Assembly: GCF_002563775.1 (NCBI RefSeq)
Contig: NZ_PDJO01000001.1
Location: 3,350,501 to 3,414,500 of the forward strand
DNA: 64,000 bases
Reading direction: 5' to 3'
Origin: Thioclava sp. ES.031
GTDB taxonomy: Bacteria > Pseudomonadota > Alphaproteobacteria > Rhodobacterales > Rhodobacteraceae
A program made the position numbers and the translations under genes. Positions 5,610 through 18,861 of this stretch are shown here, piece by piece. The notes beneath the pieces were generated by a model. It did not search any database. It was not told the origin of the DNA and saw only the letters and a program-made list of their open reading frames with translations. Position 1 is the stretch's first letter. Each line of letters begins with the position of its first letter.

Positions 5610-7706
5610 CTACCCGTTCAGATCCTTGATCAGCCGCCCGTGTTTGCGCAGCTCGGCCACCAATTCGCCGAAGGTGCGCAAGCCCCGCGCCTGAAGCGCC
5701 GGGAGCATTTTCAGGAAGGCATCCGCCGTCGCGACCGTGTCTCCGATCGCGGTGTGGCGCGCTTCCTCGGGGATGGTGATACCGAGGCGATGGGTCAGCG
5801 CGTCGAGCGTGTGGCTCTCGGATTGCCCAAACACCACCGCCGACAGCAGCACCGTATCGAGGATCGGATGGTCGAAACGTTCGCCGATTGCCACCTCCTT
5901 GCGATGCAGGAATTCCATGTCGAAAGGCGCGTTATGCGCGATCAGCACCGCGCCCTCGGCGAAGCGGTGGAAATCGCGCCCCACCTGAGCAATGTCAGGC
6001 GCGCCTTCGACCATCGCGTTCGAGATGCCATGCACCTCGGTCGAGCCGGGCGGGATCGGGCGTTTGGGATCGACAAGCGTGTCGAAGACCTCGGTATCGA
6101 TCCGCCGACCGTTGACGATGCGCACGGCGGCGATCTGCACGATCTCGTCGCCCTCGGTGGGCAGCAGGCCCGTCGTCTCGGTATCGAAGACCACATAGGT
6201 CAGATCGGTCAGCGGCGTGTCGGCGATCTCGGCCACGCGCTCGCGCGAGAGCAGGTCGAAATCATAGACCACCGCGCGCGGCACCGGTTTCGGGCGCTTG
6301 GTGACATGGCGCGCCTCGCGCAGCGGGATGCAGAGCCGCGCCCGCGTGTCGCCCAGCTTCTCGGGCCAGATTTCGGCGGCATGGGTGGTCAGCACGCGAT
6401 GCCCGGTGACGTCCTCCAGCCCCACATCGAGCGGCTGCTCGAGCCAGCCCTCCAGCTCCGCGATAGGCACCGGCGCGCCTTCCCATTCCAGCGCGATCAG
6501 CGCGCCGGGGCCGTCCTCGGTGATCTCCAGCCGGAAGTCGCGGCGCCCCGTCAGCTTGCGCACCAGCCCCGCCAGCAGGGCCACCATCTCGAAGCCCTCG
6601 CAGCGCAGCATCAGCCCTGCGGTCACCGGCAGGATCGCCCCGCCCTCGGCGGCCACCCGCGCGGCCACCGCCTGCCCCAGATCGGAGGCGCGGATCATCG
6701 CGAGCGGCCACCAATCGGCGCGGTTGGCCTCGTGGCGCTCGAAGAATTCATGGATCGCGGCGGAGAGGTGATGCGCCTCGGAATTGGCGGCCTCGCGCAC
6801 CCGGTCCCGCTCGGGGCCCGGCGCGGGGCCGTCATCGGCGGTCAGCACCCCGATCAGCGATTGCAGGGCTGCGGCAGGGCGGCGGATGCGGTCGAACAGC
6901 TCGTCCATCAACTGTTCGCGCTGCGCATGAGAGGCCATGTCGCCCGAGACATCGCGCAGCGTCAGCACATAGCCCGGGCGCGCGCTCAGATGATGATCTT
7001 CGCCCTCCGACAGCAGACGCATCCGCGCGGCGAGCACCCGGCCCTCCGCCTTGGTCGAGCAGAGCAGGTCGGAGGCGGCGTCGGGATCTTCCGTCGCCAG
7101 AAGGCGATCATAGGCATGGGCGATGGGCGGCTGGTTGAGATAGTCGAAGACGCGCCGATCCAGCCCCGGCGCATGGGCCGAGCCCAAGAGCTCCACCGCC
7201 TGCCCGTTATAGAAAGCCAGCTGATGATCGGCGGTGCAGAGCAGCACGCCCACCGGCACATCCGACAAGAGCGCCTCGAGCCTTTCCTTCTCCTGCGCGA
7301 GCCGCGTCGTCTCGCGCTGCACGGCTTCGGTCAGGGCGTTGCGGGTCTCCGACAGGTGGCGCGTAACCGAGGCGGCGGCAGGCGCCAGATCGCCCAGATA
7401 GCGCGCGATATCGGCGTCCATATCGCCCTCGATCTCGGCCGTCGTGCGGGCGCGCAACATCCCCGAGAGCCGCTCGATCGGCTTGGCCACGTTCTCGTCG
7501 AAGAGAAACCAGATCCAGGCGATCAGCCCGAGGATCACGAAGCCCGCGACCGCGCCGCCGATCACCATAGCATTCAGAAGCTCAGGGTCGCCCAGACGGG
7601 AGAAGCCGAACCACAGCCCCGCCACCAGCGCCACCAGATTGCCGAGCGCCAAGGCGGCGAAGAACAGAAACACCCGGGTGCGCAGGGAAAGCCGGGTGAG
7701 ATCCAT
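5610..7706 (-). CDS. Membrane PAS/pseudo-histidine-kinase fused to a DEDDh 3'-5' exonuclease
   Basis: A 698-residue fusion. Two membrane helices (about 10-32 and 45-69) lead into a HAMP-like linker, a PAS-like domain (about 145-250), a histidine-kinase-like region (about 262-465) and a DnaQ/PolC-type exonuclease (about 500-690). The exonuclease is complete: D508-x-E510 (FDTETTG), D596 (HNAPFD), H651 and D656 (HTAIGD). The kinase half looks dead: where the H-box histidine should be, the sequence reads FDRIRRPAA, and I see no N-box asparagine or G-box aspartate. It is last in the acetate operon and overlaps the receiver gene in ATGA. The substrate of the exonuclease is unknown. Confidence 0.85.
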   Translation of the reverse strand: MDLTRLSLRTRVFLFFAALALGNLVALVAGLWFGFSRLGDPELLNAMVIGGAVAGFVILGLIAWIWFLFDENVAKPIERLSGMLRARTTAEIEGDMDADIARYLGDLAPAAASVTRHLSETRNALTEAVQRETTRLAQEKERLEALLSDVPVGVLLCTADHQLAFYNGQAVELLGSAHAPGLDRRVFDYLNQPPIAHAYDRLLATEDPDAASDLLCSTKAEGRVLAARMRLLSEGEDHHLSARPGYVLTLRDVSGDMASHAQREQLMDELFDRIRRPAAALQSLIGVLTADDGPAPGPERDRVREAANSEAHHLSAAIHEFFERHEANRADWWPLAMIRASDLGQAVAARVAAEGGAILPVTAGLMLRCEGFEMVALLAGLVRKLTGRRDFRLEITEDGPGALIALEWEGAPVPIAELEGWLEQPLDVGLEDVTGHRVLTTHAAEIWPEKLGDTRARLCIPLREARHVTKRPKPVPRAVVYDFDLLSRERVAEIADTPLTDLTYVVFDTETTGLLPTEGDEIVQIAAVRIVNGRRIDTEVFDTLVDPKRPIPPGSTEVHGISNAMVEGAPDIAQVGRDFHRFAEGAVLIAHNAPFDMEFLHRKEVAIGERFDHPILDTVLLSAVVFGQSESHTLDALTHRLGITIPEEARHTAIGDTVATADAFLKMLPALQARGLRTFGELVAELRKHGRLIKDLNG

Positions 7707-8095
7707 CAGGCCGTCTCCCCGTCGAGGATGCGGTGGACCTCCTCGCGCAATTCGCGCAGCTCGAAGGGTTTGGCGATGAAACCGTCGGCACCGAGCGCGA
7801 GGCCCTTGCGGCGCTCCATCGCGGAGCCGCGCGCGGTCATCATCAGGATCTTCACATCGCCAAGGCCCTTGTCGGCGCGCACGCCTTCGCAGATCTCGTA
7901 GCCCGAGACCTCGGGCAGCATCACGTCAAGGAGCACCAGATCGGGGCGGGTCTCGCGGATTTTCTCCAGCGCGCCGCGCCCGGTATCGATCCGGTCATGC
8001 TCGAACCCCTCGCGGCTCATCAGATAGTCGAGCGCGATGGCGATATTGTCCTCATCCTCCACGATCAGGACGCGATGTTTCCTCCCCCCCGGCAT
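7706..8095 (-). CDS. Single-domain response regulator (receiver only)
   Basis: A 129-residue CheY-like protein with no output domain. The acidic pocket is at VEDED, the phospho-acceptor aspartate is in LLDVMLP, the switch threonine region is MMTARG, and the conserved lysine is in IAKPF, so phosphorylation chemistry should be intact. The stop overlaps the start of the pseudo-kinase/exonuclease gene. That neighbour lacks a phospho-acceptor histidine, so the phosphate must come from another kinase or the receiver acts by binding. Confidence 0.9.
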   Translation of the reverse strand: MPGGRKHRVLIVEDEDNIAIALDYLMSREGFEHDRIDTGRGALEKIRETRPDLVLLDVMLPEVSGYEICEGVRADKGLGDVKILMMTARGSAMERRKGLALGADGFIAKPFELRELREEVHRILDGETA

Positions 8096-8099
8096 GGTC

Positions 8100-8636
8100 T
8101 CATCCTCCTGCGCATACCGCTTTCAGCCCCGGGTCGTCGGGCGTGAGTTTCAGCCAACCGCCGCCCGACAGCTCTCCGTCTTTCGTCAGCGTGGCCCCGT
8201 TCACCAGATCGGCGCGGCTGTCGGTCTTGCAGTCATAGACCGTCGGCACCGTCTGCAAATTCTGCCAGCGGCCGATCAGCAGCAGATCGGTCTCGGCCAG
8301 CTCCGGCTTGCCCGCCACCGGATGCTCCACTTTGCCCGCATCGACCGCCATGAAGCGGGTGACCATCGGCACAAGATAGGTCCAGGGCCGCCAGCCGACG
8401 CTTTCGTCGATCTTCTGCAAGACGACGACCGTGTCGGGCATGTCCGCGCGCATCTTGGGATACCACGAATACTCGCTCCAGACCGTGTAGCCGATAAGCG
8501 CCGCCCCGACCGCTGCGGGCATCACCCATTTCGGCAGCTTCTCGCCGCGGAACTTCTTGCTCAGATGAGAGAGCAGGAAGACCACGAGAGCGGCAAGCGC
8601 GCCGGCAGCAAGGGTCGAGATGTAATCGTTCGTCAT
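8100..8636 (-). CDS. Conserved hypothetical membrane-anchored protein in acetate operon
   Basis: A 178-residue protein with two hydrophobic segments near the N-terminus (about 7-24 and 36-54) and a soluble C-terminal half ending in a cysteine pair (VYDCKTD and KAVCAGG). I recognise no domain. It lies 9 bp downstream of the DUF294 nucleotidyltransferase gene and 4 bp upstream of the receiver gene, so it is almost certainly co-transcribed. By position it may anchor or tune the signalling set, but this is inference. Confidence 0.75.
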   Translation of the reverse strand: MTNDYISTLAAGALAALVVFLLSHLSKKFRGEKLPKWVMPAAVGAALIGYTVWSEYSWYPKMRADMPDTVVVLQKIDESVGWRPWTYLVPMVTRFMAVDAGKVEHPVAGKPELAETDLLLIGRWQNLQTVPTVYDCKTDSRADLVNGATLTKDGELSGGGWLKLTPDDPGLKAVCAGG

Positions 8637-8645
8637 AAGCTCTCC

Positions 8646-10475
8646 TCAGCTCATCGCGCCTTTGCCATGTCCGGCGGCCGATTGCATGGTCCGCACCACG
8701 ACGAACGCGTCCCGCAGGTGGGAGCGTTCGAAGTCGGACAGGTCCGACGGTGCGAGATAATTGTCAGGTTTGCGCCCCGAACGGGCCAGATGCGCCTGGT
8801 TCTCCAGCCGCATCGACGCGATCAGGTCATAGGCCTCGACCAGATCGCGCGCGCCGGAATGGCTCAGCACGCCGGCATGCTCGGCCTCGATCAGACGGGC
8901 GCGGGTGTTCACTTCGGGCAAGCGGCCCTGAAGCGCATAGATGCGGGCCAGATCGGTCACCGGGACCACGCCGTTATGCTTCATGTCGATATGGTTGCGA
9001 TGCTCGCCCGAGCGGATCGTGGCGAAGCCCCGGATCAGGCCCAGCGGCGGATGATGCTTGAGGCTGTTGGCAATCATATGGGCCACGAAGATCGAGTTCT
9101 TCGACGCCTTCGCCAGGGTCTCTTCCTGCAACTGCTGGAACAGCCCCGCCCCGTTGCCGCCGATCGCGCGCAGATCGAACATCACCGAGGCGAGCATCTG
9201 CGCCTCGGGGTTGGGCTTGGCGATCCAGCCGTTGAAATAGTCCCGCCAGACGCGGACCGGCTGACACCAGCGCGGGTTCGTCGCCATCATGTCGCCCGGG
9301 CAATAGACGTAGCCGCAGGCATCCAGCCCGTCCGAGACGATCTTCGCGAGCTGGCGGAAATACTCCATATCCGCCTCGGTCACGGCATCATCGAGGATCA
9401 GGCAATTGTCCTGATCGGAGACCCCGGTCTGCTCTTGGCGCCCCTGCGAGCCGCAGGCCAGCCACAGATAGGGCACCGGCGGCGGCCCCAGCGCCTCCTC
9501 GGCCATCTTCAGCAGGCGGCGCGTGACCGCATCGGCGATATCGGTGATCAGACGGGTGATGACCTCATGCGCGTGATGCCCGCCCACGAGCTGCACCAGA
9601 AGCTGCGGGATGCGCGCGGTGACGGCGGCCATTTCCGGCACGGTCTCGGCGCCCGCCACATCGCGGATCAGCACGGCCGAGCTGACCGCCTGAAAGCGGG
9701 TCAGATCGGTCTGGGTGATCATGCCTACGAAGCGCCCGCGATCGGTGATCGGCAGGTGACCGACGCGCTTTTCCAGCATGACATGCAGAAGGTCCGTGCC
9801 CAGCCCCTCGGGGGTCAGCGTCACCGGATCGGGCGTCATCACCTCGCCCACGGGCGTATCGGGCGCGCGGCCTTCGGCCAGAACCTTGTTCGACAGATCG
9901 CGCACCGTGACGATGCCCAACAGCCCACCCTCGCCATCGGTCACGCCGAGCGAGGAAATATGCGCATCGCGCATCTGCCGCGCAGCCTCGGTCACGGTGG
10001 TCTCGGGCGCGCAGCCCATCGGCTCCTGCGCCAGCAGGTCAGCGATCTTCATCGTCGCGATGGAATTGGTGCGGGTCTCGCCACCGCGCACCCGGTTGAA
10101 GAAGCGCGCGAAGGCGGGGGTGTTTTGCGACAGCTCGCGGAACTCTTCGACCGGCAGCTCCAGCAGCACGGTCTCGGCGGTCGTGCGCGCGGTGGTCGCG
10201 GCCAGACCGTCGCGCATCAGCCCGCGCTCGCCAAAGGTGTTGCGCGCGCCGAGGATCGAGACCAGCGCCCCGTTCTGATCGGTGACTTCGACCGCTCCGC
10301 GCTTGATCAGGTAGATGCCCTTGAGCGGCTCGCGATAGGAATAGACGGTTTCGCCTGCGGGCAATTCTCTGCGGCGGAAGGAACTGGCGACATGCTCCAG
10401 CTCGTTGCGCGACAGATTGTCGTAAGGGTGGACGCCTTCGAGAAATGCGAGGATCGGGGTCAGATCGGCGGCCAT
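8646..10475 (-). CDS. cNMP-binding/CBS-pair/DUF294 putative nucleotidyltransferase
   Basis: A 609-residue regulator of the COG2905 type. The order is a cyclic-nucleotide-binding-like domain (about 10-120), a CBS pair (about 142-265), a DUF294 GlnD-like nucleotidyltransferase (about 290-430) and a DUF294 C-terminal helical domain (about 450-600). The nucleotidyltransferase active site is preserved: GSQGRQE (342-348) and SDQD with D354 and D356, plus a candidate third acidic residue in MFDLR (D434). Family members commonly sit beside acs and acetate-type symporters, as here. CBS domains usually bind adenine nucleotides, so the protein could sense AMP made by Acs. The target of nucleotidyl transfer is not known. 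Confidence 0.88.
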   Translation of the reverse strand: MAADLTPILAFLEGVHPYDNLSRNELEHVASSFRRRELPAGETVYSYREPLKGIYLIKRGAVEVTDQNGALVSILGARNTFGERGLMRDGLAATTARTTAETVLLELPVEEFRELSQNTPAFARFFNRVRGGETRTNSIATMKIADLLAQEPMGCAPETTVTEAARQMRDAHISSLGVTDGEGGLLGIVTVRDLSNKVLAEGRAPDTPVGEVMTPDPVTLTPEGLGTDLLHVMLEKRVGHLPITDRGRFVGMITQTDLTRFQAVSSAVLIRDVAGAETVPEMAAVTARIPQLLVQLVGGHHAHEVITRLITDIADAVTRRLLKMAEEALGPPPVPYLWLACGSQGRQEQTGVSDQDNCLILDDAVTEADMEYFRQLAKIVSDGLDACGYVYCPGDMMATNPRWCQPVRVWRDYFNGWIAKPNPEAQMLASVMFDLRAIGGNGAGLFQQLQEETLAKASKNSIFVAHMIANSLKHHPPLGLIRGFATIRSGEHRNHIDMKHNGVVPVTDLARIYALQGRLPEVNTRARLIEAEHAGVLSHSGARDLVEAYDLIASMRLENQAHLARSGRKPDNYLAPSDLSDFERSHLRDAFVVVRTMQSAAGHGKGAMS

Positions 10476-10498
10476 GATCTTGTCCTTTGGGTGGTGGC

Positions 10499-10559
10499 GG
10501 CGCCCCGAGGGGCGCCTGCCGAAGATTCAGAGGTCGGGACGAGGTTACCCCCCGTCCCG
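10499..10559 (-). other. Two hairpins between symporter and DUF294 genes
   Basis: GGCGCCCC (10499-10506) pairs with GGGGCGCC (10509-10516). CGGGACG (10535-10541) pairs with CGTCCCG (10553-10559). No strong T-run follows on the minus strand. They probably stabilise the upstream symporter transcript or reduce read-through into the regulatory genes. Confidence 0.5.
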
Positions 10560-10569
10560 CGCCGCTGTC

Positions 10570-12309
10570 TTAGTGGTCGACTGCCGCACCGGCGCCTTTC
10601 GGCACGCGGATCGACTCGACGAGTTCCTGGATATCTTCCGGGGTCTCCTTGGTCGCGTTCGACACGAAGTAGGCCACGATGAAGTTCAGGACCGCGCCGA
10701 TCACCCCGAAGGAGGTCGACTTGATCGAGAGGATCATCGGCTGGGCATCCGTGAACGTGTTGGTGCCCGGGATGAAGAACCAGCCCTTGTGCAGGAAGAT
10801 GTAGATCAGCGTGGTCGCGAGACCCGTGAGCATACCTGCAACAGCCCCGGTGTTGTTGATGCGCTTCGTGAAGATGCCCATCATCAGTGCCGGGAAGATC
10901 GACGACGCTGCCAGACCGAAGGCCAGAGCCACCGTCTGTGCCGCGAAGCCGGGCGGGTTCAGACCCAGATAGGTCGCCACGACGATCGCCACGGCCATCG
11001 AGATACGGGCGGCCAGAAGCTCGCCTTTTTCCGAGATGCCCGGGTTGATCTGCGACTTGATCAGGTCGTGCGAGACCGCCGACGAGATCGCCATCAGAAG
11101 ACCAGCCGCCGTCGACAGAGCCGCAGCCAGACCACCGGCCGCCACCAGCGCGATCACCCAACCCGGCAGGTTGGCGATCTCGGGGTTGGCGAGCGTGATG
11201 ATGTCGCGGTTCACGGTCAGTTCGTTTGCGTCGCTCGCATTGTACTCGATGCGGCCGTCGCCGTTCTTGTCGTCGAAGGACAGAAGACCGGTCTGGGCCC
11301 AGTTACGCACCCAAGCGAGGTTCTGGTCGTTCTCGATCGCGGTCATTTCCACGGCCGGCTCGGTCACGCCATTCGGGTAGAAGGTCGAAACGAGGTTCAG
11401 ACGCGCCATTGCACCCACAGCCGGAGCGGTCAGGTAGAGAAGCGCGATGAACACCAGCGCCCAGCCCGCCGAGGAACGCGCGTCGGCGACCTTCGGAACG
11501 GTGAAGAAGCGCACGATGACGTGCGGCAGACCGGCGGTACCGATCATCAGCGTCATGGTGAACAGGAACATGTTCAGCGTGGTGTCATGCTGACCCGTGT
11601 AGGACTTGAAGCCCAGTGCCTCGACGGTGTCGTTCAGCGTCGACAGGATCGGCGCGCCGGTGTTGACGTCGTTCGAGAACAGGCCAAGACCCGGGATCGG
11701 GTTGCCGGTCAGCTGCAGCGAGATGAAGATCGCCGGGATGGTGTAGGCGATGATCAGCACGACGTACTGAGCCACCTGCGTGTAGGTGATGCCCTTCATG
11801 CCGCCCAGAACCGCGTAGAGGAACACGATCGCCGCGCCGATGAACAGGCCGGTGGTGTTGTCCACTTCGAGGAAGCGCGAGAACGCAACGCCCACACCGG
11901 TCATCTGACCGATAACGTAGGTGATCGACGCAACGATGAGGCAGATAACGGCCACGGTGCGCGCGGTTTGCGAATAGAAACGGTCGCCGATGAATTCCGG
12001 CACGGTGAACTTGCCAAACTTGCGCAGATAGGGCGCAAGCAGCATGGCCAGAAGCACGTAGCCACCGGTCCAGCCCATCAGGTAGACCGAGGTGTCGTAG
12101 CCGCCGAAGGCGATGAGGCCAGCCATCGAGATGAACGACGCGGCCGACATCCAGTCAGCGCCCGTAGCCATACCGTTGACGACCGGGTGAACGCCGCGAC
12201 CCGCGGCGTAGAATTCCGACGTGGAACCCGCACGGGCCCAGATCGCGATGCCGATGTAGAGCACGAAAGTCGCGCCGACCACCAGCAGGTTGAGGGTAAA
12301 CTGATCCAT
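10570..12309 (-). CDS. Sodium:solute symporter, VC_2705/ActP-like (acetate-type)
   Basis: A 579-residue SSS-family transporter with about 13 hydrophobic segments. The signature blocks are the N-terminal FYAAGRGVHPVVNGMATGADWMSAASF and the later GLAAALSTAAGLLMAISSAV Na+-site region. A hydrophilic loop contains a calcium-type motif DDKNGDGRI (346-354). The adjacent DUF4212 protein is the usual small partner of this subfamily. With acs in the same operon, uptake of acetate or another short monocarboxylate is likely. ATG 12309 has GGGAGGAGAGAGGGA just upstream. Confidence 0.9.
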   Translation of the reverse strand: MDQFTLNLLVVGATFVLYIGIAIWARAGSTSEFYAAGRGVHPVVNGMATGADWMSAASFISMAGLIAFGGYDTSVYLMGWTGGYVLLAMLLAPYLRKFGKFTVPEFIGDRFYSQTARTVAVICLIVASITYVIGQMTGVGVAFSRFLEVDNTTGLFIGAAIVFLYAVLGGMKGITYTQVAQYVVLIIAYTIPAIFISLQLTGNPIPGLGLFSNDVNTGAPILSTLNDTVEALGFKSYTGQHDTTLNMFLFTMTLMIGTAGLPHVIVRFFTVPKVADARSSAGWALVFIALLYLTAPAVGAMARLNLVSTFYPNGVTEPAVEMTAIENDQNLAWVRNWAQTGLLSFDDKNGDGRIEYNASDANELTVNRDIITLANPEIANLPGWVIALVAAGGLAAALSTAAGLLMAISSAVSHDLIKSQINPGISEKGELLAARISMAVAIVVATYLGLNPPGFAAQTVALAFGLAASSIFPALMMGIFTKRINNTGAVAGMLTGLATTLIYIFLHKGWFFIPGTNTFTDAQPMILSIKSTSFGVIGAVLNFIVAYFVSNATKETPEDIQELVESIRVPKGAGAAVDH

Positions 12310-12330
12310 GTCCCTCTCTCCTCCCTGAGA

Positions 12331-12588
12331 TTATTCTTCGACGCCGTGCTCGCGGTCCAGTTTGTTCATCCGCCACGCATAGGTGAAGATGAGCACCAGG
12401 AACACGAGGATCGAACCTTGCTGGGCGAACCAGAAGCCAAGATCAGTGCCACCAATTTTGATGCCTGCCAGCATCGGGCGCAGCAGGATGCCGAAGCCGA
12501 AGGACACGATGAACCAGATCACCAGAGAAATCTGGATGGTCCGGATATTCGCCTTCCAATAGGCGTTGGACGAGGATTTGTCCGCCAT
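12331..12588 (-). CDS. DUF4212 small membrane subunit of the symporter
   Basis: An 85-residue protein with two membrane helices (about 18-40 and 52-73). The family-typical opening YWKANIRTIQISLVIWF is present, as is the GFWFAQQGSILVFLVLIF helix. DUF4212 proteins are encoded directly upstream of VC_2705-type symporters and are thought to form part of the transporter, in analogy to YjcH with ActP. ATG 12588 was chosen because AGGGAG lies about nine bases upstream; the longer frame has no homology. It is separated from the symporter by 21 bp. Confidence 0.88.
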   Translation of the reverse strand: MADKSSSNAYWKANIRTIQISLVIWFIVSFGFGILLRPMLAGIKIGGTDLGFWFAQQGSILVFLVLIFTYAWRMNKLDREHGVEE

Positions 12589-12618
12589 GAGACTAACTCC
12601 CTTTAGTTTCTCTCCAGA

Positions 12619-12637
12619 CGGGCCCCTCATGGGCCCG
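12619..12637 (-). other. Palindrome between adk and DUF4212
   Basis: CGGGCCC (12619-12625) and GGGCCCG (12631-12637) form a 7-bp hairpin with a short loop in the 63-bp gap between adk and the transporter genes. No T-run follows, so it more likely affects mRNA stability than termination. Confidence 0.4.
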
Positions 12638-12651
12638 CCCCTCCCCAAAAT

Positions 12652-13347
12652 TCAGGCCGAGACGCGCTTTACGATCGACCCAAGGCCCGAGGCGATCTCG
12701 TCGATGGAGCCCATCGCGTCGATCTCCTCGAGAACACCGAGCGCCTTGTAATGGGCGATCAGCGGTGCCGTTTGCGCGTGGTAGGCCTCCAGCCTCGCGC
12801 GCGCCGTCTCGGCATTGTCGTCGGCCCGGCGTTTGAATTCCGTGCCGCCGCATTTGTCGCAAACACCCGCAACTTCGGGCTGTTTGAACTCGTCGTGATA
12901 CCCCTCGCCGCATTTGGCGCAGGTGTATCGGCCGGCGACGCGGGCGATCATCGCCTCGTCATCGACCTCCAGACTGATCGCTGCGGTCACCGACTGGCCA
13001 TTCTCCTCCAGAAGACCGTCGAGCGCCGCAGCCTGACCGGCGGTGCGCGGGAACCCGTCGAGGATCACCCCTTTCGCAACATCCGGTTCAGCCATGCGAT
13101 CTTGCAGGATCGCCAGAACGATCTCGTCCGAGACGAGACCGCCCTCCTCCATCACCGCTTTCGCGGCGAGACCGGCCTCGGTGCCCTGAGACACCGCGGC
13201 CCGCAGAAGATCGCCCGTCGAGAGCTGCACGAGGCCGAAGGTCTCTTCGAGCATCCGCGCCTGCGTGCCCTTGCCCGCACCCGGAGGGCCGAGAAGGATA
13301 AGAACGGCAGGCTTGGTCTGCGTCATCGTCGTGCTGTCCGACATCAT
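12652..13347 (-). CDS. adk: Adenylate kinase (long form with cysteine LID) in the acs operon
   Basis: Interconverts AMP plus ATP with two ADP. The P-loop GPPGAGKGT is at 20-28, and STGDLLR and DGFPRT form the AMP site. The LID carries four cysteines as CAKC and CDKC, the zinc-binding arrangement. The 231-residue length fits the long form. It overlaps the acs stop (ATGATG start cluster), so it is made together with acetyl-CoA synthetase, which releases AMP. In related genomes the housekeeping adk lies in the ribosomal-protein operon, so this is probably a second, acetate-linked copy; that needs the whole genome to confirm. Confidence 0.93.
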
Positions 13348-15311
13348 TTGTTCCCGCGATTTTCGATCAGATCATCGACGACCGACGGATCGGCCAGCGT
13401 CGAGGTGTCCCCAAGGCTGCCGAAATCGTTCTCGGCGATCTTGCGCAGGATGCGGCGCATGATCTTGCCCGAACGGGTCTTCGGCAGGCCCGGCGCCCAT
13501 TGGATGATATCGGGCTTGGCGATCGGACCGATCTCGGTGCGGACCCACTTCTCGAGCTCCTTGCGAAGCTCATCGGACGGTTCGACATCGTTCATCAGCG
13601 TGACATAGGCATAGATGCCCTGACCCTTCAGCTCGTGCGGGTAGCCCACCACGGCAGCCTCGGCCACGGCCTGATGCGCGACCAGCGCGGATTCGACTTC
13701 CGCCGTGCCCATGCGGTGACCCGAGACGTTGATCACGTCATCGACGCGGCCGGTGATCCAGTAGTAGCCATCGCTGTCGCGGCGGCAGCCGTCACCGGTG
13801 AAGTAATAGCCCTTGTACTGGCTGAAATAGGTCTCCTGGAAACGCTCGTGGTCGCCCCAGATGGTGCGCATCTGGCCCGGCCAGCTGTCCGAGATGCAGA
13901 GTACGCCTTCGGTCTCGGTCTCGTCCTGCTTCACCGCGGTCTGCGGATCGAGCACGACCGGCTTCACGCCGAAGAATGGACGGGTCGCCGAGCCGGGCTT
14001 CGTGGGCGTCGCCCCCGGAAGCGGGGTCAGCATGTGGCCGCCGGTCTCGGTCTGCCAGAACGTGTCGACGATCGGGCATTTGCCCTTTCCGACGTATTTG
14101 TCGTACCAGGCCCAGGCTTCGGGGTTGATCGGCTCACCGACCGAGCCCAGCACCTTGAGATCGGACAGATCGTATTTCTCGACCCATTCCGGCCCTTGGC
14201 CCATCAGCGAGCGGATCGCGGTGGGCGCGGTGTAGAACTGGTTGACCTTGTGCTTTTCGCATACGGCCCAGAACCGGCCCGCATCCGGATAGGTCGGCAC
14301 GCCTTCGAACATGATCGTGGTCGCGCCATTCGCGAGCGGCCCGTAGACGATGTAGCTGTGGCCGGTGACCCAGCCCACATCGGCGGTGCACCAGAACACG
14401 TCGCCATCGTGGTAGTCGAACGTGTATTGCATCGTCATCGCGGCGTAGACGAGATAGCCGCCGGTGGTATGCACGACGCCCTTCGGCTTGCCGGTCGAGC
14501 CCGAGGTGTAAAGGATGAACAGCGGATCTTCCGCATTCATCGGACGCGGCGGACATTCGGGCGAGACGTTCTCCATCATCGCCTTCACGTCGACATCGCG
14601 ACCGTCGATCCACGAGGTCTGGTCGCCAGTGTGCTTCACGACGAGGCAACGCACCTTGTCCGAGCAGTGCAGCAGCGCGGCGTCGGCATTCGCCTTGAGC
14701 GGCGTGCGGCGGCCACCGCGCGGGGCGGTGTCGGCGGTGATGACGACCTTGGCGCCCGAGTCGTTGACCCGGTTGGCCAGCGCGTCGGGCGAGAAGCCCG
14801 CGAAGACGATCGAGTGGATCGCGCCGATACGCGCACAGGCGAGCATCGCGTAAGCCGCTTCCGGGATCATCGGCAGATAGATCACGACGCGGTCGCCGCG
14901 CATCACGCCCTGGCTCGAAAGCACGTTGGCGAAGCGGTTCACCTTCTCGGACAGCTCCTTATAGGTGATGTGCTGCGCCGGGGTTTCCGGATCGTCGGGC
15001 TCGAAGATGATCGCGGTCTGGTCGCCGCGCGTGGCGAGGTGACGGTCGATACAGTTCACGCTGGCGTTCAGCACGCCGTCCTCGAACCATTTGATATCGA
15101 CATGGCCGAAGGTGAAATCGGTGTTCTTCACCTTGGTATACGGCGTGATCCAGTCGAGGCGCTTGCCCTCGCGGCCCCAGAACTTCTCCGGATCGGTGAT
15201 CGATTCCTGATACATCTCGCGATATTTCGCGGCGTCGGCATGGGCGTTCTCGAAGCCCGGCGGGACCTCTTTGACCTCTGGAACCTGAGTCACCTTGTCT
15301 TGCGCAGTCAT
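13344..15311 (-). CDS. acs: Acetyl-CoA synthetase (AMP-forming)
   Basis: Activates acetate to acetyl-CoA through acetyl-AMP. The 655-residue ANL-family enzyme shows the P-loop-like [12 protein letters not shown], the adenylate motif [10 protein letters not shown], the hinge region YYITGR-like [11 protein letters not shown], and the C-terminal [12 protein letters not shown] with the lysine that is regulated by acetylation in known Acs proteins. ATG 15311 is preceded by GGGAGGAAG at a proper distance, which favours it over the extended frame. It heads the operon continuing with adk, DUF4212 and the symporter. Confidence 0.97.
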
Positions 15312-16316: not shown

Positions 16317-18608
16317 TCAGATCGGATTATCCATCCGCAGCGTGACCTGCAGCCGGCCCTTCGCCGCCTCCGGCCAGTTCACCGTAATCTGGTTCTTGGC
16401 CGCGCCCTGTTCCACCGCGACATAGGGCATCGCCTCGATCCGCGCCCCCGAGCCGTCGCGCACCATGCCCTCGGCGATCAGGCTCTGGACATTGCGCGCC
16501 CAGCCCCCGAACGGCAGGTATTCGCTCGCATCCACCGTCCAGACCGATTGCGCCGTGGACTGGTTCACCTCGACCATCACCGGATTCTGCGAGATGTCGT
16601 TGATCGCGTTGAACATATTCGCCTCGAAGACCACGTTGCGCACCCGCGAGCGGTCGATATCCGCGAAACTCGTGTCGATCTTCTCGATCCGGTCGACACT
16701 GCCGTTGAGCGACTTGAACACGTTATTCGTCACGCTCAGCCCTTGGATGAAATGGCCCGGCCCGTAGGGCTTGATCGAGAGCCACGTGAACCACGGCGCG
16801 ACATTGATGCACACACAGGTATTGCCCGTCACCGTCAGCCCGCCAAAGCTGTATTCGCTCGCGAAATCCGGCTCGGCGTCATGCTCGTTGGTCCACTCGA
16901 TCACCGAGTTGTCGATGTAATTACCCGTCACCGCCGACTGCACATTGGTCTGGGTGAAGACCAGCCCCGCCACGCGCACGCCGTTGCTTTCCTCATCGCC
17001 CTGAAACCAGTGATTGCCGACGATCAGGTGCCTCGAGCCATTCAGCACGAAGCTCGTCCCGAAGCGCACAAAGCGCGAGTCGCGGATCTTGCTGTCATTG
17101 GCATTGACGTTGAGCACCATAGACTTGCGATCCTGCGCGGGCACCAGCATCTCGTCCGACAGGAACTGACAACCGTCGATCAGCAGATCCTGACAGCCGC
17201 GCCCGATCGAGGTGATCACCCGATCCTTGGGCCGCACCACATAGCTGTCGCGGATCTGGAACATCTGCCCGTCAGGCGCCAGCATGATGCAGCTCGCCGC
17301 GCCGTTGCAGAGGAATTCCACATTGGCAATGTTGAACCGGTCGAGCTTCTCCATCCCGGAAAAATCCAGCACATATTGATGACGCGTGAACGTGTAGGTT
17401 CGCGTGCCAGACCCACCGTAAAGCGGCTGCGACAGGTAAAGCGTCTGTGCCCCGATATTCTTCGACTTCACATAGACCTCGCGCCCGACCCCAGTGCCGG
17501 TGATCCGCGCGCCCACCGGGATGTTCGCGATATTGGCGACCGAGGTCAGCTGCATCGACTGGCTCACCGAATAGGTCGCCTGCGACGTCACCACCTCATC
17601 GTCCCAGGCAGAGCCCGCGATCACATTGATCTGCCCGTTTTGGAGAACCCGGCGGTTGGAAAAGCTCGTAAGGTCCGGCGCGATCTCCTCGATGCGGATC
17701 GGTTCGGTCACCTCGACGCGGCGCCCTTTCAGGTCGAGCACATTATGATCGGTATAGCCGAACAGCGCCTGCAGCGCCTTCTTGAAGCCCGCCAGCTCAT
17801 CGCCGAAAGCCGCCGCATAGGTCGGAAAGTCGAAGGACGACATCAGCGCCAGCTTCGCCGCGACCGGCATCACAAGCGTGCCCACGAACTCGACCGGCGA
17901 CGAGATCGAGATCGTGCTGCCCAGGTAATACACCCCCTCCGAGACGAGAACCTTGCGCCCGTTCGCCGCCTGATCGGCCGCGTTGAACGCCGCGACATTG
18001 TCGGTGACGCCATCCCCGACCGCGCCGTAATCGCGCACATCGACCCAGCCCATCAGGTCGCGCAGGAAGGCCTCGGTCACATCCTCGATCTCGATATCGT
18101 CGATGCGCACCACGCCGCCATTGGCGCCGGTCAGGTCCAGCCCGAAATGCCCATAAGCCGCATCCAGCCCCCACGGCATATCGACACCGTCGCGCGAACC
18201 GGTCCCGATGATCGCCGACACTTCGACCACCGCGCCATAGCTTTGCAGCGCGACCGTCGGGCCGACTTCGACCACACCGGTCACATGGGCACCCGACCCC
18301 GTTACCGCATAGCCCGCGACGCGCACCTCCGGCAGGTTGCCGCTGACCGCCTTCACCCGCGCCCGGATGCGCAGATAGGTGCCCGGCAGGATCGGCGTGT
18401 CGCCCATGTAGCGCAGCTTCTGCACTGTCTGCGTCTTGAGCATCTCCAGACAACCGCCGAAATCCGCATCCGCCGGAACCAGCACGGCATTGCCCGTGCT
18501 CTCATAGGTCGTGGAGCCCGGCGTGCCATCCTCGCTCGACCATTGATCCAGCCCTTCGGCGAATGCGGGCGGGGTCAGCACCAGCCCTTCGGTAATCGCG
18601 ACGTTCAT
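16317..18608 (-). CDS. Large right-handed beta-helix protein (pectate-lyase-3/GH28-related)
   Basis: A 763-residue protein. An N-terminal carbohydrate-binding-like beta-sandwich (about 1-190) is followed by the pectate-lyase-superfamily block VDVRDYGAVGDGVTDNVAAF and a long parallel beta-helix with many short N- and G-rich turns. There is no signal peptide or anchor. Proteins of this kind occur in Rhodobacteraceae as GH28-related proteins of unknown role; the plan also resembles phage-type tailspikes. ATG 18608 has AGAGGA upstream and starts the conserved N-terminus. No capsule or phage genes flank it. Confidence 0.75.
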   Translation of the reverse strand: MNVAITEGLVLTPPAFAEGLDQWSSEDGTPGSTTYESTGNAVLVPADADFGGCLEMLKTQTVQKLRYMGDTPILPGTYLRIRARVKAVSGNLPEVRVAGYAVTGSGAHVTGVVEVGPTVALQSYGAVVEVSAIIGTGSRDGVDMPWGLDAAYGHFGLDLTGANGGVVRIDDIEIEDVTEAFLRDLMGWVDVRDYGAVGDGVTDNVAAFNAADQAANGRKVLVSEGVYYLGSTISISSPVEFVGTLVMPVAAKLALMSSFDFPTYAAAFGDELAGFKKALQALFGYTDHNVLDLKGRRVEVTEPIRIEEIAPDLTSFSNRRVLQNGQINVIAGSAWDDEVVTSQATYSVSQSMQLTSVANIANIPVGARITGTGVGREVYVKSKNIGAQTLYLSQPLYGGSGTRTYTFTRHQYVLDFSGMEKLDRFNIANVEFLCNGAASCIMLAPDGQMFQIRDSYVVRPKDRVITSIGRGCQDLLIDGCQFLSDEMLVPAQDRKSMVLNVNANDSKIRDSRFVRFGTSFVLNGSRHLIVGNHWFQGDEESNGVRVAGLVFTQTNVQSAVTGNYIDNSVIEWTNEHDAEPDFASEYSFGGLTVTGNTCVCINVAPWFTWLSIKPYGPGHFIQGLSVTNNVFKSLNGSVDRIEKIDTSFADIDRSRVRNVVFEANMFNAINDISQNPVMVEVNQSTAQSVWTVDASEYLPFGGWARNVQSLIAEGMVRDGSGARIEAMPYVAVEQGAAKNQITVNWPEAAKGRLQVTLRMDNPI

Positions 18609-18861
18609 CTGCAATCCTCTTGTCCATGTTCCCACCCGCGCGCCCCTTGCCGTGCCAATTGCGCGCCGGGACCGACCGAAAGCGCCCGCGCTTCGGCCCG
18701 AACAGAGCTAGAAGGAAAGGCTAAAGAAGACCTGAGAGGGCCGTGCGCAGCCTCCGGTCACGGCCTGCTTTCCCGGTGCCCGTCCCGCTTCGCAGGTGAC
18801 AGCGTCATGCGCCTGACATATCCTCGCGCCACATCGGGTGTGCAGCCAAGAGGAGCCGCAG

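Follow-up and report, generated by a model that had tools for sequence, protein, structure and literature searches.

We analysed a 64,000-nucleotide stretch of the 4.02-Mb genome of Thioclava sp. ES.031 (contig NZ_PDJO01000001.1, positions 3,350,501 to 3,414,500; hereafter the window). It contains a minus-strand run of eight genes in the order acs, adk, DUF4212, SSF symporter, DUF294 nucleotidyltransferase, transmembrane protein, receiver and exonuclease (15311 to 5610). The last gene encodes a 698-amino-acid (aa) protein whose middle part is, as judged from alignment profiles and predicted folds, a histidine-kinase DHp and CA module turned pseudo-kinase. An earlier note on this DNA, made from the letters and a list of open reading frames (ORFs), had described a kinase-like half with no H-box, N-box or G-box, to be checked by alignment to HisKA and HATPase families and by structure prediction. 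A Pfam scan of the single sequence indeed gave no match to HisKA or HATPase_c at E ≤ 10. The alignment profile of the middle region, however, matched solved histidine kinases, and when the PAS and middle fragment was folded alone the prediction matched kinase CA domains, the DivL structure 4q20 among them. Both parts of a HisKA-type fold, the DHp hairpin and the CA domain, were thus recovered by profile and by predicted fold. Because only alignment profiles detect the module, a scan of one protein would miss it. Root-mean-square deviations of 13–21 Å in the fragment matches reflect inter-domain angles, and we used only the CA-domain rows. The 50 matches listed for the full-length model were exonuclease chains only, and we did not rely on its domain arrangement because its predicted template modelling score was 0.46.

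Conservation across the family indicates that the kinase motifs are gone and the exonuclease is intact. In an alignment of 246 proteins (240 taken from the listed part of 1520 and 378 matches, together with 6 more), the H-box position holds Asp in 127, Glu in 106 and another residue in 13; it is acidic in 233 of 246 and never His. The phospho-acceptor His was likewise absent from all 66 pseudo-kinase proteins of our locus survey. The G1 motif DxGxG occurs in 0/246 and a G2-like motif in 3/246, and Asn reaches at most 23 of the 246 proteins in any column of residues 371–387; a pattern search for the N-box was too strict, recovering just 2 of 11 true SLC5-type kinases. R275, by comparison, is kept in 245/246. 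The pseudo-kinase status claimed in the earlier note therefore held, with a kinase fold found by profile and fold search and neither an intact H-box nor a G1 box. The same note had read the exonuclease as catalytically complete, and we found D508, E510, D596, H651 and D656, the full DEDDh set, in every one of the 246 proteins.

The pseudo-kinase form of the exonuclease is accompanied by a stand-alone receiver gene. A lone receiver on the same strand lies beside the exonuclease gene in 47/66 loci with the pseudo-kinase versus 0/14 without it, in 7/9 versus 0/68 in a second set, and in 22/26 versus 0/20 in the window's own family, Rhodobacteraceae (46 loci taken from 63 positive genomes); pooled, the three sets, which overlap in part, give 76/101 versus 0/102. 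The receivers carry the acid pair, phospho-Asp, Thr/Ser and Lys expected of Response_reg proteins. They look phosphorylatable because D14, D57 and K109 are kept in 48/48, as is T or S at position 87; E15 is kept in 46/48. The pseudo-kinase should be unable to phosphorylate them, since it has neither the His nor the G boxes. The earlier note had proposed that the receiver acts as a docking switch; the link between the genes supports this, the receiver being found solely with the pseudo-kinase, and docking itself stays conjectural. The family of pseudo-kinase exonucleases extends through Alpha-, Beta- and Gammaproteobacteria and into records named Desulfuromonadales, Nitrospirota and Acidobacteriota; one of our lists of relatives holds the best 80 of 479. 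The closest named relatives of the window's protein are those of Thioclava indica and T. atlantica (82–83% identity).

By profile comparison, the pseudo-kinase module is closest to SLC5-linked sensor kinases. In the window's genome the best match to its profile after the protein itself was an SLC5-type kinase (51.4 bits versus 39.2 for the next). Of 20 other genomes, 19 likewise gave an ORF of 839–1041 aa as the top match other than the protein itself, the exception being a 68%-complete genome. We opened 11 such loci (10 in other genomes, 1 in our own), and all 11 encode SSF and the motif HELRTP. In 24/66 pseudo-kinase loci the exonuclease ORF has, on its own strand and no more than 1.5 kb away, an SSF ORF exceeding 850 aa; these SSF ORFs are 874–1005 aa long, the H-box is intact in 24/24, and the one that was scanned (L165) contains HisKA and HATPase_c. 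Such CrbS/CbrA-type kinases (the SLC5-STAC class, recognised here by SSF, H-box and kinase domains) are nearest to the pseudo-kinase module in sequence and, in many bacteria, share its operon, but they keep the H-box and kinase domains and have no exonuclease. Positions that would contact a receiver agree between the two at H+11 and H+14. In the window's genome, a gene for an ScfR-type short-chain acyl-CoA regulator (L268, 4589–5977) lies upstream of the SLC5-type kinase gene.

The exonuclease is in turn near-inseparable from the DUF294 nucleotidyltransferase. DUF294_C was found in 109 of 299 sampled genomes of the phylum, and we compared 80 loci from 76 of these 109 with 40 control stretches about 200–300 kb away, in 39 of those genomes and our own; the 33 positive genomes left out were our own and mostly many-contig assemblies. 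This type of exonuclease lies near DUF294_C in 77/80 loci versus 0/40 controls. Within 700 bases it lies in 70 loci on the strand of DUF294 and in 1 on the opposite strand; in 3 loci it is more distant and in 3 it is fused. Across two samples, five proteins (L016, L028, L136, L137 and L141) carry RNase_T-CBS-CBS-DUF294-DUF294_C as a single chain; at L016, L028 and L137 the fused gene lies near SSF and DUF4212 genes. The exonuclease itself occurs without other domains, with added N-terminal parts (a transmembrane segment and PAS, for instance), or with transmembrane segment, PAS and pseudo-kinase, which argues that the enzyme pair is the core and the pseudo-kinase an added part. As the earlier note had stated, the DUF294 active site is kept. 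Within the GSQGRQE motif (residues 342–348), Gly342, Ser343 and Arg346 are present in 81 of 81 aligned proteins, and Asp354 and Asp356 of the DxD motif each in 80; together with the DUF294_C domain, these identify a DUF294-type nucleotidyltransferase. The phosphate-binding cassette of its cNMP-like domain is not conserved (Glu83 in 8/81 relatives), nor is the column that we take to hold the usual cassette Arg, and the label 'cAMP-binding' is therefore doubtful for this protein.

Transporters are the steadiest further neighbours of the pair, more so than acs. SSF proteins were found in 49/80 loci versus 1/40 controls, the match being of transporter type in 46 of the 49, and DUF4212 in 32/80 versus 0/40. 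The corresponding counts are 16/80 versus 1/40 for acs, 7/80 versus 0/40 for adk and 36/80 versus 6/40 for receivers of any sort. BCCT transporters occur in 11/80 loci versus 0/40, and 10 of these 11 are among the 31 loci lacking SSF; one member was scanned (PF02028, E 2.1e-196) and the remaining ones were assigned to it by BLAST clustering. Of the 13 BCCT genes, eight are no more than 1 kb from the DUF294 ORF, and five of these eight are on the other strand; BCCT loci near the pair include L083, L097, L105, L106 and L116. We rejected Acs as a constant partner, given its presence near the pair in just 16 of the 80 loci.

We considered how these parts might work together. The symporter, Acs and Adk would take up a short-chain acid and activate it, with the remaining genes as a regulatory module. 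The DUF294 nucleotidyltransferase would attach one or more nucleotides to a partner, with the symporter or its small subunit as the likeliest candidate, and the DEDDh exonuclease would remove them; it fits as an eraser because a 5'-nucleoside joined to protein through a phosphodiester (protein-O-PO2-O-5'-nucleoside), with a free 3'-OH, presents the bond type cut by a 3'-5' exonuclease. In this lineage the exonuclease would be anchored in the membrane and is joined to PAS and a dead kinase module. The lone receiver would be phosphorylated by an active SLC5-type kinase, whose gene lies at another place in this genome and is a direct neighbour in many other bacteria, and the receiver would dock on the pseudo-kinase as on a kinase and so switch the exonuclease. 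A studied example of a kinase turned reader of its receiver is DivL of Caulobacter, a kinase fold without a phospho-acceptor His that reads the phosphorylation state of DivK. DivL, however, has Tyr at the His position and keeps the N, G1, F and G2 boxes (PMC4211667), whereas the Thioclava pseudo-kinase has Asp272 there (Asp or Glu in relatives), has lost the G boxes and carries an exonuclease output in the same chain.

Published genetics bears on the enzyme pair. In Pseudomonas putida, PP_0354 (a CBS protein of nucleotidyltransferase type) and PP_0353 (an RNase_T exonuclease) are consecutive genes of one operon, targets of CrbS/R (MxtR/ErdR) and tied to acetate and pyruvate use; the excerpted accounts describe PP_0353 solely as an RNase_T protein, and in them PAS, pseudo-kinase and receiver partner go unmentioned. 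Normal growth of P. putida on pyruvate requires PP_0353 and actP-I and does not require PP_0354 (PMC9927547). In P. fluorescens, losing the PP_0354 counterpart pflu5625 made a negligible difference on acetate, and Pflu5625 was already predicted to act via nucleotidylation (PMC5715377). Harm from loss of the eraser and no effect from loss of the writer would be expected if the writer inhibits uptake, although an exonuclease acting alone fits too. DUF294_C has been grouped with the C-terminal domains of GlnD and GlnE (PMC3710099), which also have a Pol-beta nucleotidyltransferase; the fused forms described above may likewise hold adding and removing parts in one chain. The candidate eraser in the Thioclava operon is a DEDDh exonuclease. 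For removal of the mark, GlnD uses an HD domain and GlnE a second transferase domain. A writer and eraser pair is plausible in view of the near-obligate pairing, the single-chain fusions and the P. putida pyruvate phenotype. Taken together, the P. putida genetics, the nucleotidylation prediction, the GlnD/GlnE grouping and the precedent of DivL as a kinase fold turned reader of a phosphorylated receiver (PMC4211667) lead us to favour, tentatively and at somewhat short of even chances, a DivL-like reversed two-component branch in which the phosphorylated receiver gates an exonuclease that opposes the nucleotidyltransferase, probably on a transporter. What we infer here is phosphotransfer and docking, the way in which the exonuclease is switched, and the nucleotide mark with the partner that bears it. 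A fuller three-step branch, with erasure of a nucleotide mark in place of transcription as its output, in which an SLC5-type kinase signals through the lone receiver to a dead paralogue of the same kinase and the membrane-bound exonuclease then strips the DUF294 mark from a Na+-coupled transporter, is as a whole unlikely, though worth considering.

Several observations weigh against the receiver-gated reading. On 20 mM acetate, P. putida can do without PP_0353 and, likewise, without PP_0354 (PMC9927547), and the neutral effect of deleting the nucleotidyltransferase there also fits an exonuclease that acts alone. The earlier note had offered Acs or the transporter as the controlled protein and had counted a missing acetate phenotype, together with a lack of nucleotide transfer to any operon protein, against its idea; the objection applies in part, in that the P. 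putida single mutants show no defect on acetate, and Acs as main target was not supported, SSF genes being near the pair more often than acs. In 21/80 loci we recognised no SSF and no BCCT gene, and at L100, L128 and L141 the sole SSF match is a weak one, to a long ORF resembling sensor kinases. No receiver accompanies the pseudo-kinase at 19/66, 2/9 and 4/26 loci, of which some are on short contigs, and the association counts are not independent, with some genomes shared by the three sets. On a tree of the exonuclease domain (68 of 72 rows, after the truncated matches L273, L298, L303 and L317 were dropped), the short form requires 2 changes, the pseudo-kinase without receiver 4, and all states 6. 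The window's genome has one SLC5-type kinase gene (C1:1278284-1280926), unlinked to the operon. This kinase is kept in 20/20 long-form genomes and also in 18/20 short-form genomes, whose exonuclease has neither the pseudo-kinase nor a receiver gene beside it; it must therefore have other partners, and we rejected the idea that it is lost together with them. Its receiver-contact positions H+8 and H+12 differ from those of the pseudo-kinase, and with such mixed agreement a shared receiver is neither proved nor excluded.

The same data can be read in other ways. The pair may act on RNA, the exonuclease shortening and the nucleotidyltransferase extending the 3' ends of certain transcripts or tRNAs, so that the receiver branch would govern how mRNAs or tRNAs of carbon-use genes turn over. 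Nucleic acid is the normal substrate of such DEDDh exonucleases, fold and profile searches place PolC/DnaQ exonucleases as the nearest solved relatives with RNase T further down, and Henriquez et al. suggest a role in mRNA decay for PP_0353; the transporter linkage, the CBS domains and the GlnD/GlnE-grouped C-terminal domain (PMC3710099) point instead to protein modification, and we regard action on RNA as unlikely but deserving attention. That grouping with protein-modifying enzymes also speaks against a small nucleotide signal made by the nucleotidyltransferase, read by CBS or PAS and destroyed by the exonuclease, as does the unconserved cNMP cassette. Such a signal would suit the CBS and cNMP-like domains of DUF294 proteins and the five fused chains, and we consider it quite improbable.

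The pseudo-kinase could also be a mere dimerising spacer between PAS and exonuclease, with the receiver there for historical reasons. Short forms of the window's family, which lack both the module and the receiver gene, still keep the membrane-protein and DUF294 genes beside them (20/20); the tree requires few independent losses, and some pseudo-kinase loci have no receiver. Against an inert spacer stand the receiver, found only beside exonuclease genes with the module, the near-invariant R275 and the acidic H position, and we hold it to be improbable.

The features of the locus are collected below. The run of eight genes, described in the earlier note as having short gaps, was found at its places with gaps, from acs to the exonuclease gene, of -4, 60, 21, 94, 9, 4 and -1 bases. 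The adk gene, which overlaps acs and would recycle the AMP made by Acs, is a second copy, 51% identical to another elsewhere in the genome. The symporter belongs to the VC_2705 family, having a TIGR03648 match above cut-off and a TIGR03647 small subunit next to it. The 178-aa membrane protein had no Pfam match above cut-off and none in NCBIfam (E ≤ 0.1) or PHROGs (E ≤ 0.01); its homologues adjoin the exonuclease gene in 45/46 Rhodobacteraceae loci and were matched near the enzyme pair in 12/80 DUF294 loci. A locus of Rhodobacter capsulatus (L143) repeats the gene order of the window from DUF4212 through symporter, DUF294, membrane protein and receiver to exonuclease. Just upstream of the operon, a 772-aa minus-strand ORF (16317-18635) resembles, by eye, a parallel beta-helix protein. 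A scan gave 3 promoter-like sites (1.6 ± 1.3 in shuffles) and 9 terminator-like sites (5.6 ± 2.6), which we did not use.

Features of the Thioclava sp. ES.031 operon, in positions of the window
Feature	Position	Strand	Basis
acs, acetyl-CoA synthetase	13344..15311	-	TIGR02188, 1033.7 bits
adk, second adenylate kinase gene	12652..13347	-	Pfam and NCBIfam profile matches
DUF4212 small symporter subunit	12331..12591	-	PF13937, 119.1 bits; TIGR03647, 115.6 bits (cut-off 26.05)
VC_2705-family sodium/solute symporter	10570..12309	-	TIGR03648, 821.7 bits (cut-off 320.75)
cNMP-CBS-CBS-DUF294-DUF294_C nucleotidyltransferase	8646..10475	-	Pfam domains and motif alignment
cNMP-binding-like domain, residues 35-118	10122..10373	-	PF00027, 57.3 bits
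Nucleotidyltransferase motif GSQGRQE...DxD, residues 342-356	9408..9452	-	Alignment of 81 proteins
178-aa membrane protein	8100..8636	-	Family-less; kept beside exonuclease gene
Stand-alone receiver	7706..8095	-	PF00072 (Response_reg), 90.9 bits
698-aa PAS-pseudo-histidine-kinase-DEDDh exonuclease, hydrophobic N-terminal helices	5610..7706	-	RNase_T, 127.8 bits; alignment profile; AlphaFold2 model
Two N-terminal helices, putative membrane anchor, residues 8-89	7440..7685	-	AlphaFold2 model; hydrophobicity by eye
PAS domain, residues 153-252	6951..7250	-	Weak sub-cut-off Pfam matches; fold matches to PAS chains
DHp-like helical hairpin, residues 254-329	6720..6947	-	Alignment profile; AlphaFold2 and fold matches
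Asp272 codon at H-box histidine position	6891..6893	-	Asp/Glu column in 246 relatives
CA-like domain without G1, G2 or conserved N-box Asn, residues 336-467	6306..6701	-	Profile and fold matches
DEDDh exonuclease domain, residues 503-690	5637..6200	-	RNase_T

The enzyme pair, its control by CrbS/R, the actP neighbourhood and the nucleotidylation guess are already in print. Among the open-licence full texts listed, whose silence is weak evidence of absence, we found no report of the pseudo-kinase, its acidic H position or the lone-receiver link, nor of the closeness to SLC5-type kinases, the single-chain fusions or the BCCT link. The excerpted literature consulted likewise yielded no reported substrate for a CBS-DUF294 protein, and the mention of DUF294 in the PXO_RS20535 paper, as excerpted, did not lead to this locus. 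The proteins described here make up a widespread family in which the presumed reader of a receiver comes with an enzyme attached. Should this exonuclease indeed erase a nucleotide mark, it would represent a new class of eraser, and CBS-DUF294 proteins would gain a testable function in transporter control. Such an arrangement could tie nutrient sensing directly to the control of transporters.

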